DNA of 64,000 nucleotides from contig DVNB01000083.1 in NCBI GenBank assembly GCA_018714695.1, positions 1-64,000 on the forward strand, written 5' to 3'. Source of the stretch: Candidatus Ornithomonoglobus merdipullorum. Lineage in GTDB: Bacteria > Bacillota > Clostridia > UBA1381. The position numbers and the translations under genes were made by a program. Shown here in pieces: positions 12,589-35,689 of the stretch. Each line of letters starts with the position of its first letter. The first letter of the stretch is position 1. Under the pieces are notes generated by a model that made no database searches, was not told the DNA's origin, and worked only from the letters and a program-made list of their open reading frames with translations.

Positions 12589-13206
12589 TTACGAGAGCGG
12601 AGTTATGCTCACTTCACCTTCGATCTTTATCTTCTCGCCGGAGCTTATTTCGAATTCGTATGAATGGCTGTCTATGGTCGAAAGATTCTCGCGGACGGTG
12701 AGGGAATTGGCTATGTTATAGACATAGATAGTACCCTCGCCCTCGGCGCGGTATCTGCCGCTTTTGAGATCGGCGGGACATTTGTATTCGCCGTCCTTGA
12801 GCTCTCTCGCTTCACCCTCGGCGCTGTCAGTGCCTATGGATGACAGATTGTCGAGATACTCCTGTTTTTCGGTGAGCTGCGAATTGAGTTCCGAATTCCT
12901 TTGCCTTGCGTTCTCAAGATCGGCGTTATAGCTGTCAAGCTCACTGTTGAGTGAGGTTACCTCGTTTATGAGAGTGCTGTTGGCATTTATGATCTGGTTG
13001 TAACCTGCGATCTCGATATTAAGGTCATCGATCTGTGAATTGAGCTCCGAGATCTGCGAATTCATATCATTTTTTTCGCCGGCGACCATAAGCGCCGCCT
13101 TTGAGCTCGTGCCTATGCTGTTGTGGAACACAAGAAGCAGAACGCCGATAACGACGCTGACAATTATTGGTATCATTGTGATATAAAAGCTTTTTCCGTT
13201 ACGCAT
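12589..13206 (-). CDS. Membrane-anchored coiled-coil protein with C-terminal 'GRY' domain
   Basis: A 205-residue bitopic protein. One TM helix (about 9-28) is followed by a coiled coil of about 80 residues (repeated SQISELNSQIDDLN, Asn/Leu/Glu-rich heptads). A small beta-type domain follows (about 138-205) with LKDGEYKCPADLKSGRYRAEGEGTIYVYN. The domain pattern L-x(2)-G-x-Y-x-[CA]-x(3)-[IL]-x-[PS]-G-R-Y-x(2)-x-G-x-G is shared with the neighbouring 309-residue protein, so the two are paralogs. The coiled coil and domain should face outside. Function unknown; a surface sensor or scaffold is possible. Confidence 0.6.
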   Translation of the reverse strand: MRNGKSFYITMIPIIVSVVIGVLLLVFHNSIGTSSKAALMVAGEKNDMNSQISELNSQIDDLNIEIAGYNQIINANSTLINEVTSLNSELDSYNADLENARQRNSELNSQLTEKQEYLDNLSSIGTDSAEGEARELKDGEYKCPADLKSGRYRAEGEGTIYVYNIANSLTVRENLSTIDSHSYEFEISSGEKIKIEGEVSITPLS

Positions 13207-29362: not shown

Positions 29363-29407
29363 ATTCTGTTAATACATAATGTAATAAAAAATGATACGGA
29401 GAGGGCT

Positions 29408-30679
29408 ATGACGCAGGAAGAATTGATAAACGTTTTAATAGTATTTTCGCATACCTTTCTTGGGGCGTATGTAATGATGTTTACAGAGTTCCGTGAACCC
29501 CGGCGTGTATGGAGACTGCGTTGGGCTGTGACGGCAGAGCTTGATATAGCGGCGAATGGATTGCTGTGTGCTGTCATAGGCAGGGATATATGGATGTACT
29601 GCGCGGTATTCACGCTGACCATACCAATCATTATTATTACTGTTTTCTGTTCTCTGCATAAAGGTCTGCGTGTAGTATTCAGTGTATGTACTTGTCTTTG
29701 GGTAGGATGTGTGGCGTTTTCGTGTTCGGAGACAGCATATTGGCTTTCAGGAGGCAATTTATGGATCAGGCTTGCGGTTCACGTAGCGGCATATGTGGCA
29801 CTGTATTTTGTCCTGTGCCGTTTCCGTCCGTATTATAAAAGGATGGTGCGCCTGCTTGATCACGGATGGAGCGTTCTGTGTATGATCCCGACTGTTACCT
29901 TTTTAGTTGCCTTGTATATAATAAATTTCCTGTTGACAGAAAAAACGATGATATCAGTCATTGCGATATGTGGCATAACGATCATCTGTACCTGTGCATA
30001 TAGTCTTATCTATTTGTTTTTTGTCAAGGTGTTGGATGACTATGAGCTGAAAACCAGCAGTGATCTTGCCGAAGTAAGACGTTTTGCGCTTGAGCGCCAG
30101 CTTGAAGAAACCAGAGAGGCTGAGAATCTGATGCGTGTACAGCGCCGTGATATGAGCTGTCGCTGGATGATGCTTTCGAGTTTTGTGGAAAAAAATGATA
30201 CTAGTGCGATAGCAGAGCTTATCGGCGGGGCACAAAAGAAGCTTGATGAATCCGTATCGGTGGTTTGGTGTAAAAATCAGATGCTGAATGCAACTGTAGC
30301 TGCTTATTTTACAAAGGCAAAACGTGAGGGAATAACCGTTGAAGCAAAATTAGATATTCCTGACGATATACCGGTAGATGCGGCAGAATTATCGATGGTG
30401 TTTGCGAACGCCCTTGAAAATGCAATTAATGCCTGTACACTGCTGCCGCCGGGAAAGCGTAAGATCATATGTAAATGTGTAGAATATCCTAGGTTTATGC
30501 TGAAGGTGGAGAACACTTACAACGGTAAAGTGAGGTTTGGCAGTGACGGGCTGCCGCTGTCTTCGGAAGACGGGCATGGCATCGGAACACGTTCAATAGC
30601 GGCGTTTTGTAAAAAATACGATGCCTCATGGAGCTATGATGCTTCGGACGGGTGGTTTACATTGAGAATAGCGTTTTAA
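29408..30679 (+). CDS. GHKL sensor kinase paralog 1: ATPase intact, phosphoacceptor His lost
   Basis: A 423-residue membrane sensor of the AgrC/GHKL type. Six to seven TM helices fill residues 1-215; a coiled-coil dimerisation segment follows, then the CA domain. N-box NALENAINAC and G-box GHGIGTRSI are good, so ATP binding looks possible. The H-box, normally QRHDMRHQ, reads QRRDMSCR: residue 247 is Arg, and the second His is Cys. It therefore cannot autophosphorylate in the standard way. The next gene is a clear tandem paralog (shared TEFREPxRxWR and GLRVVF-x-CTCLWxGC blocks). GAGAGG precedes ATG 29408. Confidence 0.8.
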   Translation: MTQEELINVLIVFSHTFLGAYVMMFTEFREPRRVWRLRWAVTAELDIAANGLLCAVIGRDIWMYCAVFTLTIPIIIITVFCSLHKGLRVVFSVCTCLWVGCVAFSCSETAYWLSGGNLWIRLAVHVAAYVALYFVLCRFRPYYKRMVRLLDHGWSVLCMIPTVTFLVALYIINFLLTEKTMISVIAICGITIICTCAYSLIYLFFVKVLDDYELKTSSDLAEVRRFALERQLEETREAENLMRVQRRDMSCRWMMLSSFVEKNDTSAIAELIGGAQKKLDESVSVVWCKNQMLNATVAAYFTKAKREGITVEAKLDIPDDIPVDAAELSMVFANALENAINACTLLPPGKRKIICKCVEYPRFMLKVENTYNGKVRFGSDGLPLSSEDGHGIGTRSIAAFCKKYDASWSYDASDGWFTLRIAF

Positions 30680-30762
30680 CTTATATTTTGGCTGCTCCAT
30701 CATGGTCCGTTCGGTCTGACATCAGATGTACGGATATAAAAAGTGGATTTGAGGGAATTTAT

Positions 30763-31629
30763 ATGGTATACAATAATTATATGAATGCGCTGATGGTGCT
30801 TTTAACGCAGATGTTTCTCGGCAGTTATGTCTTGATGCTGACGGAGTTTAGGGAACCTGTGCGTATATGGAGATCTATTTGGACAGCTGTCATCGTTTCG
30901 GTGGTGTGCATAAATATTCTATTGATATTGTTTTTTGATTTTTTGGATATTTATAAACGAGTTGGGATATTGACGGTCACGCTTCCGTATGTTTTGATGA
31001 CCTTGCTGTGTTCACGCTATAAGGGGCTTCGGGTCGTATTTAATATATGCACATGCCTTTGGATCGGATGCATAGGGAATGCCAACGGTATAGCGGCTCA
31101 TGCACTGATGCCGGAAAATGTTTGGATAAATGTAGCAGCACGCAGTGCTTCATATTTTGTGCTGTATTTTGTGGTAAGATTTTTTAAACCGTATTACAGT
31201 CAAATGCTTCAGCTTTTGGATAAAGGGTGGGGCACATTATGCCTGATCCCTTTTACTACTTTTATATTGACTCTTTGCATGATAAATAATCTTCTTCAGG
31301 AGGAGCCTCTGGCTGCGTCTGTAATTATTTATGGGATCATGATATTATGCACATGCTCATACATTCTCATATATCTGTTCTTTATGAGGGTATTGCAGGA
31401 ATATGAGCTTAAAAACAGCCGTGAACTGATCAACGTTCAAATAGCAGCGCTTGAACGTCAGTCGGAATCAAATCGGGAGATCAATGAGAAAATGCGTATA
31501 CAGCGTCATGATATGCGCCATCAATGGATAACTGTATCAGCTTTGATAGAGAATGGCGACAAGCGGGCTGTATTGGAATTCATCGATACTGTGCAGAGAC
31601 AGCTCAATGGCATTGATCAGGAGCAATAA
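30763..31629 (+). CDS. GHKL sensor kinase paralog 2: H-box intact, ATPase domain missing
   Basis: A 288-residue paralog of the preceding kinase with the same membrane domain. Its H-box is canonical (IQRHDMRHQWITVSALI, His249), but the protein stops 39 residues later at a TAA, before any N- or G-box. No GHKL remnant is visible in other frames downstream. Start is ATG 30763 behind GAGGGA; the frame is open 37 codons further upstream, overlapping paralog 1, without a ribosome site. It is either a truncated relic or, with paralog 1, half of a split kinase. A response regulator is encoded next door on the other strand. Confidence 0.75.
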   Translation: MVYNNYMNALMVLLTQMFLGSYVLMLTEFREPVRIWRSIWTAVIVSVVCINILLILFFDFLDIYKRVGILTVTLPYVLMTLLCSRYKGLRVVFNICTCLWIGCIGNANGIAAHALMPENVWINVAARSASYFVLYFVVRFFKPYYSQMLQLLDKGWGTLCLIPFTTFILTLCMINNLLQEEPLAASVIIYGIMILCTCSYILIYLFFMRVLQEYELKNSRELINVQIAALERQSESNREINEKMRIQRHDMRHQWITVSALIENGDKRAVLEFIDTVQRQLNGIDQEQ

Positions 31630-31675
31630 ATAGGCTGCCTTTCTGGTATTTAGGGTTAGTAAGAGCTTTTAAACC

Positions 31676-31729
31676 ACGGACAGGATCCATCCGTTTGCAG
31701 TATAATATTTTCGGATGAGTTCTGTCCGT
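31676..31729. terminator. Large hairpin between kinase 2 and the response regulator
   Basis: ACGGACAG (31676-31683) pairs with CTGTCCGT (31722-31729), with an inner CATCCG/CGGATG stem. It lies between convergent genes and probably terminates one or both; a long T-run is lacking. Confidence 0.5.
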
Positions 31730-31781
31730 TCCGTATCTAAAATTATGCGGCTGAATTAGTTTCATAACGCGAAAATTTCAT

Positions 31782-32507
31782 CTATTCTTCCATCCAATAA
31801 TCCATCCATTTGTTCAGAATATCATTTCGTGCGCCTTTTGGTATTGCCAATGATTTTTCATTGGTCAATATCAGCTCTTTTTTGCCTACCTTTTTTATAT
31901 AATGGAGATTGATCAGGAAGCTTGAGCCGAGCATAATGAAATTGTCTCTTTCAAGCAATTCACCGACCGCTTTTTGAAATGATATCCTAAGTTTCTGGCT
32001 GTCAACAACGGTTTCGTTTATCAGATTGTACCGTACAGACCGCTCGTAAAGCTCAGCGTAAAGGATATCGGATATGTTTATGACAACTGTGCCGTCGGAT
32101 GTATTTACGGTTATCGAATGTGCTTTAAGCCGCGCGGTAAGTATCTCCGCCTGTTTTATAGCCGAAAACAATTTTTCTTTTTCGACAGGCTTTACAAGAT
32201 AATGAAGAGCATGTACACTGTAGGATTCAACAGCGTAGTCTTTTGAGCTTGTAAGGTAGATAATGGGCGCGCAAACGTCCATGCCGCGAAGCTGCAGTCC
32301 AAGCTCTATTCCGGAAAGCTCAGGCATGATCACATCAAGTATGTAAAGATCGAATAGTTCTTTTCCGCTCCATTCGACACGGTCAAGCAGCATTTGGCTG
32401 TTTGTAAACACAGTTAAATTTACGTCAGTTTTGAAATACTCCAAAATATATTCCTTGATTTTGTCAATTTGATCGACGTCATCATCACATAAAGCAATTT
32501 TCAGCAT
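31782..32507 (-). CDS. LytTR-family response regulator (AgrA/VirR type)
   Basis: A 241-residue regulator with an N-terminal receiver domain (IALCDDDVDQ acidic pocket, Asp58 in LYILDVIMPELSG, conserved Lys in LVKPVEKEKLF). A LytTR DNA-binding domain follows (about 135-235; HSITVNTSDGTVVINISDILYAE, FQKAVGELLERDNF, SFLINLHYIKKV). Start ATG 32507 follows AGGAGATG. LytTR proteins bind paired about 9-bp direct repeats spaced about 21 bp; such a pair lies at 32586-32615, upstream of the divergent surface protein. It is presumably the partner of the two GHKL kinases. Confidence 0.9.
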   Translation of the reverse strand: MLKIALCDDDVDQIDKIKEYILEYFKTDVNLTVFTNSQMLLDRVEWSGKELFDLYILDVIMPELSGIELGLQLRGMDVCAPIIYLTSSKDYAVESYSVHALHYLVKPVEKEKLFSAIKQAEILTARLKAHSITVNTSDGTVVINISDILYAELYERSVRYNLINETVVDSQKLRISFQKAVGELLERDNFIMLGSSFLINLHYIKKVGKKELILTNEKSLAIPKGARNDILNKWMDYWMEE

Positions 32508-32538
32508 AGCATCATCTCCTGTATAATAATCAATCTTA

Positions 32539-32567
32539 ATTATATCAGAAAAGTATGAAATAATCAA
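32539..32567 (-). promoter_or_regulatory. Promoter of the LytTR regulator
   Basis: Minus-strand TTGATT (32567-32562) and TATAAT (32544-32539), 17 bp apart. Confidence 0.7.
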
Positions 32568-32585
32568 CTTTAATATTTTTATAAA

Positions 32586-32615
32586 TCGTCACAAAAAGAA
32601 CCTGAATTGTCACAA
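32586..32615. promoter_or_regulatory. Putative LytTR direct-repeat binding site
   Basis: TCGTCACAA (32586-32594) and TTGTCACAA (32607-32615) match at 8 of 9 positions and are offset by exactly 21 bp, two helical turns. That is the geometry bound by LytTR dimers. The pair ends 4 bp before the weak -35 of the divergent surface-protein promoter, an activator position. Confidence 0.55.
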
Positions 32616-32619
32616 TATC

Positions 32620-32648
32620 TTATAAAATGAGAATTTTTATGTTACAAT
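32620..32648 (+). promoter_or_regulatory. Activator-dependent promoter of the surface protein
   Basis: A good -10, TACAAT (32643-32648), has only TTATAA as -35 at 17 bp spacing. A weak -35 next to the direct repeat fits positive control by the LytTR regulator. Confidence 0.5.
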
Positions 32649-32735
32649 AGAATAAAGATATTTTTAATATAGACATATTTCCAACCGCGGATGGATCGAC
32701 ACCGTGTATCGGATAAAAGAGGAGATGAAAAGCGT

Positions 32736-35423
32736 ATGAAATGGACAAAGTTTTTCAAGAATACAGTGAGTATCGCGGCAGCGGCGGCAGCGCTTTTTAC
32801 GGCAATTGCGCTCCCATCCCCGAACCGCGCTGCGGCTGCCGGGGAAGATCAGGTTTCAGATTTACCAACAAAGCTTATGAACGGTGATTTTGAATGGCCG
32901 AATATTGACACGGCGTTGGAGAAGGCTAGTATAGATGCAAACAGCAGCGGAACCACGAGCGGAACGTATCGCGGAACGTATCGCGATTATTCGATATCAA
33001 ATAATGATACCGAGGATACGGATATCATTTTCAGACGGCACCGCATTAGCTCGGGCGGGTGGTGGAATCCGACATATACCAATTATGATGATCCGTGGTT
33101 CGTGACCACGCGTTCTATATATGACGATATTTCTTCCGATCAATCCTCGGATCACGATAAACGCGAGTTTTACTGGAAGACTACCGCGTCAGATGACAGG
33201 ATAGAGCTTGCGGCGGCACGAGATATACGATCTTGGGATGGTGGTAGCACAGTAGGTTATTTCAGAGACGGGAACACTGAAACGAGGACGAATGAGGCGG
33301 CAAGCGGCGGTCAGTTCGCGGAGCTTGTGGCTACAGAACAGTCTTCGCTTTACCAGACCATACAGACTGCCGAGGACAATGTTCTCACATGGAGGCTTGA
33401 TCACCGTGCCAGAACCAGTACAGGAGGCATGGATTCCATGGCGGTGTTCATCGGTCCTAAACAGGACGGACTGAAAAAAGCGAGTGAGTCCGCGCAGGAT
33501 GTATTCAGCGCAATGGTCGATCTGATCAGAGAAAATCCCGGAGAGACAACGCAGCCGGGGATGTCGGTGGCGGCAAGAAAGATCTATTCGGCAAAAATAA
33601 GTGACGGTATGAAAATAACAGATGCCGATGTCAGCAATAATAAAACCGATCACTGCGATCAGGAATGGACCTGCTGGATAATAACGAGTGATGACATGTC
33701 GTGGCAGGAGTACAGCGGTACTTATAAAGTGCCGGAGGGACAGAACGCAACTACATTTGCTTTTGCGGCGCTTAACAGAGCTGCCGCCAATCCTGAAGGA
33801 AACTGTCTTGATAACATTGTGTTCGGAATACAGTATCCGCTTACTGTTACAGCAACAGCAGGCGGGACCGGCACCGTATCCGGCGGCGGCATTTCAAATG
33901 CTGAGGTCTCACACGGCAATGCGTATAACGGAAGCGCAAATGAGGGCGAAACCGTTACAATAACAGCGAGACCTAATGATGCTAATCACAAATTTGTCGG
34001 CGCGACGGTTAACGGCAATTATGTCAGGATAGGAGAAAACGGATTCGTTCAGCAGCAGGATGGTTCGTACACGTATCAGCTGACAATGGATGGAGCCAAA
34101 AATGTCGAGCTGATATTCGCCTCCGTTGGCTATGTCACATATGATCTTAACGGCGGAACCTGGGATAGCGATATCCAAACTTCATACGAACTGGATAGCT
34201 TGCTAAATAACGATTTTGAGCAGAAAAATGAGCCCGAACTGACGGGCAGTAGATTCCTTCACTGGGAGGTGTACGCGGCAAACGGCACGGACTCGTTAAA
34301 TGGTAAAGTATATACTCCCCATACAATAACGTATACGGTGGATGAGGGTGACTGGTGGAATCCATGGGATGATGATACGCATACGTTCACGATCACCGAC
34401 AGCAGCGGAGAAAAGGTTATTGAGATAGAAGACGGTGCTGACGAGTATGCGATAGTGCTTCGCGCGGTATATACTCACACTGTAGACGCCGTATCCTGCA
34501 CGAAATATTTCGCCTCAAACGATGCTAATCATAAAGATGCCACGGGAGGCTCGGTCACGATCAAAAAAAATACTGACACGACCTCAAATACCGATACGGG
34601 ATCTATATCGGTAGAAAACGGTGATTCATTCACGGTAACGGCAACGCCGAACGAAGGGTTTGAGGTTGATTCATGGTGGTATTCATATATTGATGACAAT
34701 GAAAACGAGGTGCTCGAGTTGATACCTGACGCTTCCGGCGATTCATACACAGCAACGTATAACGGGAGCCGAAATGTAACGATACATGCTCAGTTTGCGG
34801 AATTGCCCATAGGTCCGTATCTGTCTGTGGTAGCAGAGAACGAAGAGACACGGAAACAGCTTGATGAAAAGGGTATAGAGTCAGAGCATGGTCATGTTAA
34901 AGGAAACGGATCAGACACGCCTGTGAGTAAGCTTTACGGCGGTGAGAAATACGGCAATACGATCTCTACCGGATTTTTTGCAAAACGCAAGTTTGAAGGT
35001 GCCACTGTTGATCTCAGCGGTACATGGTCGATAAATATTCCTGCGAACGGGACATATTTCAAGATAGCTGTTGAAGATGTAAATAGTTATGAGCATATAA
35101 ATAAAACGCCCGTATTGGGTGATGATAAGGCGGAATACAACAGCGGCGCGATCTATAAAGCGGCTGATAATACAGAAAACAATTATAATAGGCAGGTGCA
35201 ATTCTACGTTGATGGTCCTACGGTCAGCGGAAATTCTGAGATCATCTTCGGGATAATAGTCGATAACCTTTACGCCCCGAATGCGCAGGCAGGTTTCAGG
35301 CTTGGAGATAATACAGCGGGACTTGGCGAGCTCAACGAGAGCAATTCAGTTACAGTGACCGAGCAAAATAAATATGATCCGACAGCGCTTGACAATTTGT
35401 CGGATACGCAAACTATAGACTAA
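32736..35423 (+). CDS. Large secreted repeat protein (InlB B-repeat-like)
   Basis: An 895-residue exported protein. Start ATG 32736 with GAGGAGATG upstream; the open frame begins 15 codons earlier. Signal peptide about 1-36 (MKWTKFFKNTVS, Ala-rich core, cut near AAAA-GED). Residues about 45-370 form a Trp/Asp-rich domain (LMNGDFEWPN, SGGWWNPTYTNYDDPWF, GGQFAELVATEQSSLYQTI) resembling carbohydrate-binding beta-sandwich modules of clostridial surface proteins. Residues about 380-700 contain three repeats of InlB/bacterial-repeat type (VTATAGGTGTVSGGG, GYVTYDLNGGTWDS, SFTVTATPNEGFEVDSWW). The last 180 residues are a further unknown beta domain. There is no LPXTG, TM anchor or SLH domain, so it is secreted or held by another protein. 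It forms an operon with the small peptide gene downstream. Confidence 0.75.
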   Translation: MKWTKFFKNTVSIAAAAAALFTAIALPSPNRAAAAGEDQVSDLPTKLMNGDFEWPNIDTALEKASIDANSSGTTSGTYRGTYRDYSISNNDTEDTDIIFRRHRISSGGWWNPTYTNYDDPWFVTTRSIYDDISSDQSSDHDKREFYWKTTASDDRIELAAARDIRSWDGGSTVGYFRDGNTETRTNEAASGGQFAELVATEQSSLYQTIQTAEDNVLTWRLDHRARTSTGGMDSMAVFIGPKQDGLKKASESAQDVFSAMVDLIRENPGETTQPGMSVAARKIYSAKISDGMKITDADVSNNKTDHCDQEWTCWIITSDDMSWQEYSGTYKVPEGQNATTFAFAALNRAAANPEGNCLDNIVFGIQYPLTVTATAGGTGTVSGGGISNAEVSHGNAYNGSANEGETVTITARPNDANHKFVGATVNGNYVRIGENGFVQQQDGSYTYQLTMDGAKNVELIFASVGYVTYDLNGGTWDSDIQTSYELDSLLNNDFEQKNEPELTGSRFLHWEVYAANGTDSLNGKVYTPHTITYTVDEGDWWNPWDDDTHTFTITDSSGEKVIEIEDGADEYAIVLRAVYTHTVDAVSCTKYFASNDANHKDATGGSVTIKKNTDTTSNTDTGSISVENGDSFTVTATPNEGFEVDSWWYSYIDDNENEVLELIPDASGDSYTATYNGSRNVTIHAQFAELPIGPYLSVVAENEETRKQLDEKGIESEHGHVKGNGSDTPVSKLYGGEKYGNTISTGFFAKRKFEGATVDLSGTWSINIPANGTYFKIAVEDVNSYEHINKTPVLGDDKAEYNSGAIYKAADNTENNYNRQVQFYVDGPTVSGNSEIIFGIIVDNLYAPNAQAGFRLGDNTAGLGELNESNSVTVTEQNKYDPTALDNLSDTQTID

Positions 35424-35485
35424 TAGGGAATACTGCATCAAAACGGCAGTCTGAGGAGACTAACATAAAAGGAGGAATGCACATC

Positions 35486-35689
35486 ATGGTGAAATATGAC
35501 ACTCCAAATATAGAGATAACTTATTTTGATGAGCTTATAGGCATGACCAATACTGCCATGGTCTCTGATCCAACAAGGACCGCAGCTCAGAATATGAATG
35601 AGGCCGCATTTATGCAGAACGGTCCTATAAATGCGGCGGCGGCAAGGACTGTGAGAGTGCAGACCATTCTGCAGTTCAACACGGAATAA
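35486..35689 (+). CDS. Small peptide (67 aa), possible precursor or signalling peptide
   Basis: A 67-residue product with an excellent ribosome site (AAAAGGAGG, 10 bases before ATG 35486; ATG 35477 is too close). The opening VKYDTPNIEITYFDELI resembles the short leader pattern K-Y-x-x-P-x-[IL]-E-[IV]-x-x-F-x-x-x-[DE]-[VLI] common at the start of small clostridial peptides of unknown role, some near peptide-modifying enzymes. The rest is Ala/Asn/Met-rich and unlike the leader. There is no signal peptide, Cys or AgrD-like motif. Cotranscribed with the surface protein and followed by a strong terminator. Confidence 0.6.
   Translation: MVKYDTPNIEITYFDELIGMTNTAMVSDPTRTAAQNMNEAAFMQNGPINAAAARTVRVQTILQFNTE

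Follow-up and report, generated by a model that had tools for sequence, protein, structure and literature searches.

Tandem AgrC-like kinases with complementary lesions as candidate halves of a split receptor kinase in Candidatus Ornithomonoglobus merdipullorum

Two adjacent genes of Candidatus Ornithomonoglobus merdipullorum encode membrane histidine kinases that are incomplete in opposite places, which raises the question of whether they represent one kinase distributed over two proteins or a duplicated kinase that is being lost. The stretch of DNA analysed (the window) comprised the 64,000 nt at positions 1 to 64,000 of contig DVNB01000083.1, and the features of the locus are collected in Table 1.

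Table 1. Position, strand and characteristics of the features at the kinase locus (window coordinates)
Feature	Position	Strand	Characteristics
K1, AgrC-like membrane kinase, putative catalytic half	29408..30679	+	6-TM sensor, Arg247 H-box, GHKL ATPase
K2, paralogous membrane kinase, putative phosphoacceptor half	30763..31629	+	same sensor as K1, His249, stops before ATPase
Conserved hairpin 3' of K2 stop	31676..31730	+	congener counterpart at L023, about 12785-12833
LytTR response regulator, convergent with K2	31782..32507	-	Response_reg 2.2e-15, LytTR 2.1e-7
Predicted promoter of regulator, TTGATT-17-TATAAT	32539..32567	-	consensus scan, 10/12 matches, extended -10
Predicted regulator box, GTCACAA-N14-GTCACAA	32588..32615	+	21-bp offset, recurs in six genomes
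-10-like hexamer TACAAT of secreted-protein gene	32643..32648	+	27 bp after box
Secreted protein, 895 aa, predicted output gene	32736..35423	+	N-terminal signal-peptide-like stretch
67-aa ORF downstream of secreted-protein gene	35486..35689	+	

Anatomy of the two kinases

The first kinase (K1) was 423 aa long and contained a GHKL ATPase domain (PF14501) at residues 325-422, with an E-value of 5.6e-15 in the profile search and with intact N-box (NALENAINAC) and G-box (GHGIGTRS) motifs. In its H-box region, QRRDMSCRW, Arg247 appeared at the position where the phosphoacceptor His is expected. The second kinase (K2), 288 aa long, presented His249 in the H-box QRHDMRHQW, but its stop fell just before the ATPase linker and no match to an ATPase domain was obtained in the profile search. 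The start of K2 was set at ATG 30763, with a GTG at 30652 giving an upstream extension. Both kinases shared 44% identity over 273 aa spanning the sensor and the H-box helix. Neither an ATPase remnant nor a frameshift was found in the sequence 3' of the K2 stop, and no third kinase copy appeared in the window genome (2.65 Mb, 124 contigs, 86% complete).

Thus, as in split kinases, the acceptor lies on K2 and the ATPase on K1, and neither protein is complete. Regarding the traits of the AgrC type, a HATPase_c_5 domain behind a multi-TM sensor was found in K1 and in the full-length relatives described below, while K2 alone lacked it; conversely, the acceptor His in the H-box was present in K2 and missing from K1. 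Agr quorum sensing would further involve agrB and agrD adjoining the kinase, and neither gene was recognised when the ORFs surrounding the locus were read in the window and in the congener. The sequence-only reading of this DNA had already described two tandem membrane kinases with complementary lesions and no agrB/agrD; the positions, Arg247, His249 and the truncation of K2 were all borne out, as was the absence of both agr genes among the ORFs read.

Conservation of the pair and its unsplit relatives

A congener (G008; uncultured Clostridia, record CAJFNT01) harboured a collinear block with 83% DNA identity to window positions 29398-34946, which began 10 bp before K1, reached into the secreted-protein gene, where the contig of the congener ends, and sat in flanks unlike those of the window. 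Within this block, the gene order and the regulator were the same, K1 carried the same Arg, and K2 (81% identical) ended at the same residue. The pairwise omega values between both genomes were 0.167 for K1 (95% CI 0.121-0.229), 0.149 for the ATPase part of K1 and 0.223 for K2 (95% CI 0.153-0.328), with a higher value for the K2 H-box helix (0.38, CI 0.18-0.76), while the LytTR regulator and the secreted protein showed values of 0.13 and 0.30, respectively. Moreover, when unconstrained substitutions were simulated over half of the observed synonymous distance, the frame remained open in 0 of 1000 cases for K1 and in 1 of 1000 for K2. Judged by these sequence comparisons, both kinase halves are maintained by purifying selection and are not decaying, since omega is low, the frames are open and the lesions are identical in the congener; the complete state, Arg plus truncation, is represented by two species of one genus, both with multi-contig assemblies.

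Few relatives were found when the genus, the family, the order and a sample of the class were searched, and none among the plasmids and viruses searched. Three genomes (G050, G071 and G127) had one full-length kinase each, with the His kept in RHDMRH. The structure model of the G071 orthologue, of moderate quality (mean pLDDT 69.5), displayed six TM helices, a long helix, an H-box hairpin and an ATPase domain, and its best matches among solved structures were AgrC (6e52, with an E-value of 4.8e-6, and 4bxi). In Candidatus Roslinia caecavium (G340, L030), a tandem pair was found, formed by a full-length K1 with Arg again (QRRDMRRQW) and a K2 with the H-box QRHDMRHQW, which extended into the ATPase linker up to the end of the contig. 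A separate contig of this genome, where the regulator orthologue was also located, opened with an ATPase tail of 97 aa (PF14501, E 5.8e-12), a member of the same family that likely belongs to K2. Roslinia therefore appears to be an intermediate, with Arg in K1 and the ATPase still present in the neighbouring K2, a half-way state that we infer because its K2 spans two contigs. The G-box of the tail attributed to K2 (L052 1-294) read EIGVGVRS instead of GHGIGTRS, perhaps as an early sign of relaxed constraint.

The simplest path would lead from a full-length kinase through tandem duplication to the loss of the His in one copy and then of the ATPase in the other, this order of losses resting on a poorly resolved tree. 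In that tree, a single origin of the Arg in K1 gave an AU P-value of 0.196, compatible with one or two origins. It had been anticipated that relatives with a single full-length kinase, together with no conservation of the split pair, would mark both copies as decaying: single full-length kinases do exist elsewhere, but the split pair is conserved. Apart from these genomes, a more distant seventh one (G243) encoded a full-length AgrC-like kinase with 29% identity, and there a LytTR regulator, a surface-type open frame of 1832 residues and this kinase adjoin (L037 1536-9431), an arrangement resembling that of the window.

The regulator, its predicted box and the target gene

The presence of a LytTR regulator beside the kinases, also part of the sequence-only reading, was corroborated by the matches to both a REC and a LytTR DNA-binding domain. 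An orthologue of this regulator with 60-85% identity was found in all six kinase-bearing genomes, on a different contig from the kinase in four of them and as two contig-end fragments in G050; the search covered kinase-bearing genomes, so the co-occurrence is to be read one way, from kinase to regulator.

The direct repeat with a 21-bp offset beside a weak -35 was likewise recovered as first described; it was unique within the window and occurred in 0 of 100 shuffles. It was conserved in the congener and present in all six system genomes with an offset of 20-21 bp, followed in each of them by a -10-like hexamer 26-27 bp downstream. In the genome scan, the exact motif was present in four system genomes out of six, as against 0 of 26 control genomes. 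The background control, a scan with an incorrect spacing (N14-15), yielded nine sites, none of them in any of the six system genomes. The only exact box outside ORFs in the window genome was the copy beside the regulator; extra exact boxes in that genome (C73, C109) and in G071 (C81) fell within ORFs and were regarded as chance occurrences. These are putative LytTR-type repeats about two helical turns apart, conserved in six genomes and at a fixed spacing from the -10, a layout that resembles AgrA-activated promoters, where repeats with such an offset lie upstream of a poor -35 (PMC4227749). The conserved box and the promoter geometry thus support the previously suggested circuit from the regulator to the surface gene.

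The location of the box varied among the relatives. In G127 it was found directly 3' of the kinase and in Roslinia 3' of the K2 tail, and in G050 and Roslinia the regulator was also preceded by a copy. In G071 (L028 8701, minus strand) and G050 (L026 ~9540), the box preceded a Xan_ur_permease (purine-type) gene situated right after the full-length kinase, and the target of the regulator seems for this reason to have changed in the genus of the window.

As for the predicted target itself, the 895-aa protein contained an InlB-B-repeat-like domain (Flg_new_2) just below the cut-off, no LPXTG was seen in it, and the congener copy, read as far as its contig extends, showed 81% identity over 737 aa. 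The 67-residue peptide encoded downstream had been put forward as a signal or cargo, a proposal that found no support, as no relative of it appeared among the fetched loci, the contig of the congener ending before the corresponding position. The hairpin 3' of the K2 stop showed two compensatory base-pair changes with respect to the congener and fold z values of -4.1 and -4.2 in the two species; it matched no Rfam family and is possibly a 3' end signal.

A candidate heterodimeric kinase, its alternatives and known systems

We consider it probable, from the sequence comparisons, that an AgrC-type histidine kinase is split here into an obligate heterodimer of K1 and K2, which acts via the LytTR regulator. 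Both proteins have the 6-TM sensor and the dimerisation helix in common; on receipt of a signal, the K1 ATPase would phosphorylate His249 of K2 across the dimer, K2~P would pass the phosphoryl group to the regulator, and the latter would bind the direct repeat and activate the promoter of the secreted-protein gene. According to a passage in PMC6066662 (citing George Cisar 2009), AgrC dimers phosphorylate in trans, a mode in which subunits lacking the His and subunits lacking the ATPase can make up for one another's defect, which is why K1 is proposed to phosphorylate K2, and K2 the regulator. That the kinases need each other, as initially proposed, gained good comparative support (the conserved pair, purifying selection, the relatives, and a regulator and box that travel with them), because the pair is conserved in two species and the relatives show how it may have arisen. 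Heterodimerisation is nevertheless not guaranteed, given that the identity between K1 and K2 is only 44%. On balance, we also lean towards a natural origin of this state, in which an AgrC-class membrane receptor was duplicated and its copies lost reciprocal parts, leaving an obligate heterodimer whose two sensors would have to assemble before signalling can begin.

Alternatively, K1 could be a regulatory pseudokinase, a modulator or decoy that heterodimerises or titrates, with K2 being phosphorylated by another GHKL kinase or serving mainly as a phosphatase of, or a sink for, the regulator. Such modulators are known, for example in RetS/GacS heterodimers (PMC12189002), about ten further GHKL loci above the cut-off were found in the window genome, and constraint on K2 is weaker in its H-box helix than elsewhere in the protein. 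However, the strong constraint on the K1 ATPase (omega 0.149) is hard to explain without ATP chemistry, several of the other GHKL kinases adjoin their own regulators, and the sensors of K1 and K2 are common only to each other, favouring mutual pairing, so this alternative is judged unlikely. Even harder to sustain is the decay of both genes as remnants of a duplicated kinase, which the lack of one normally essential element in each gene and the single full-length orthologues in other genomes might suggest. It is strongly contradicted by the open frames, by omega values far below 1 for both genes between the two species and by the identical lesions of the congener, on which grounds it was ruled out, and the regulator and the box are conserved as well; hence hardly any weight is given to it.

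A further possibility keeps the heterodimer as proposed but has the regulator mainly repressing, or acting chiefly on another gene. Sequence does not reveal the direction of control, and in G050 and G071 the box stands before the purine-type permease gene rather than a surface gene. Opposed to this are the position of the box, 26-27 bp before a -10-like hexamer that is combined with a poor -35, as in the AgrA-activated layout (PMC4227749), and the fact that the other exact sites of the window genome are all inside ORFs, which leaves this variant rather improbable. The preferred reading thus remains that of a heterodimer activating the secreted-protein gene.

His-less and ATPase-less subunits of engineered EnvZ or AgrC mutants complement each other in trans; the present pair combines the same two kinds of subunit, but those were laboratory mutants, while this one appears to be natural and fixed. 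Split kinases as such are already known, and the natural ones found in the literature searched were CheA-type, no description of an AgrC-type split pair being found there. In Rhodobacter sphaeroides, the distribution of kinase and acceptor over CheA3 and CheA4 is functional (PMC3591291), and Synechocystis has a split kinase in Hik36/Hik43 (PMC7656254); the splitting of EnvZ has also been mentioned, 3.66% of HisKA proteins were counted as having no ATPase domain, and split histidine kinases have been predicted to permit switch-like responses (PMC3591291). As in CheA3/CheA4 and Hik36/Hik43, the acceptor His and the ATPase would here be on two proteins acting jointly on one regulator. In contrast to those CheA-derived, chemotaxis-type kinases split by domain, K1 and K2 are paralogous AgrC-type membrane receptors, each with a sensor and a dimerisation helix, of which one lost only the His and the other only the ATPase, the predicted output being a LytTR transcription factor. 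The present pair is set apart by its AgrC-type class, by the combination of a one-residue and a one-domain lesion, and by the existence of living relatives that are unsplit or apparently half-split. A receptor kinase made an obligate heterodimer by reciprocal loss would have both a testable mechanism and a testable evolutionary path, its two sensors could diverge into an AND gate, and the conserved regulator box allows the regulon to be traced as its target apparently shifts, with a secreted-protein gene taking the place of a permease gene.

With AgrC/AgrA and related GHKL-LytTR systems, the locus shares the 6-TM sensor, the RHDMRH H-box, the GHKL ATPase, the LytTR regulator and direct repeats upstream of a weak promoter. 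Unlike in AgrC/AgrA, the kinase is encoded by two genes, no peptide maker was seen, the sensor has no recognisable sequence relation to that of AgrC, and the predicted target is a secreted-protein or permease gene. Furthermore, a periplasmic sugar-binding-type protein was encoded near the regulator or the kinase in G050 (L055 1697-4360), G071 (L028 1-1725) and Roslinia (L052 1714-2499), accompanied in G050 and G071 by an adjacent CstA-family transporter, and these neighbours give a hint that the ancestral system served nutrient uptake.
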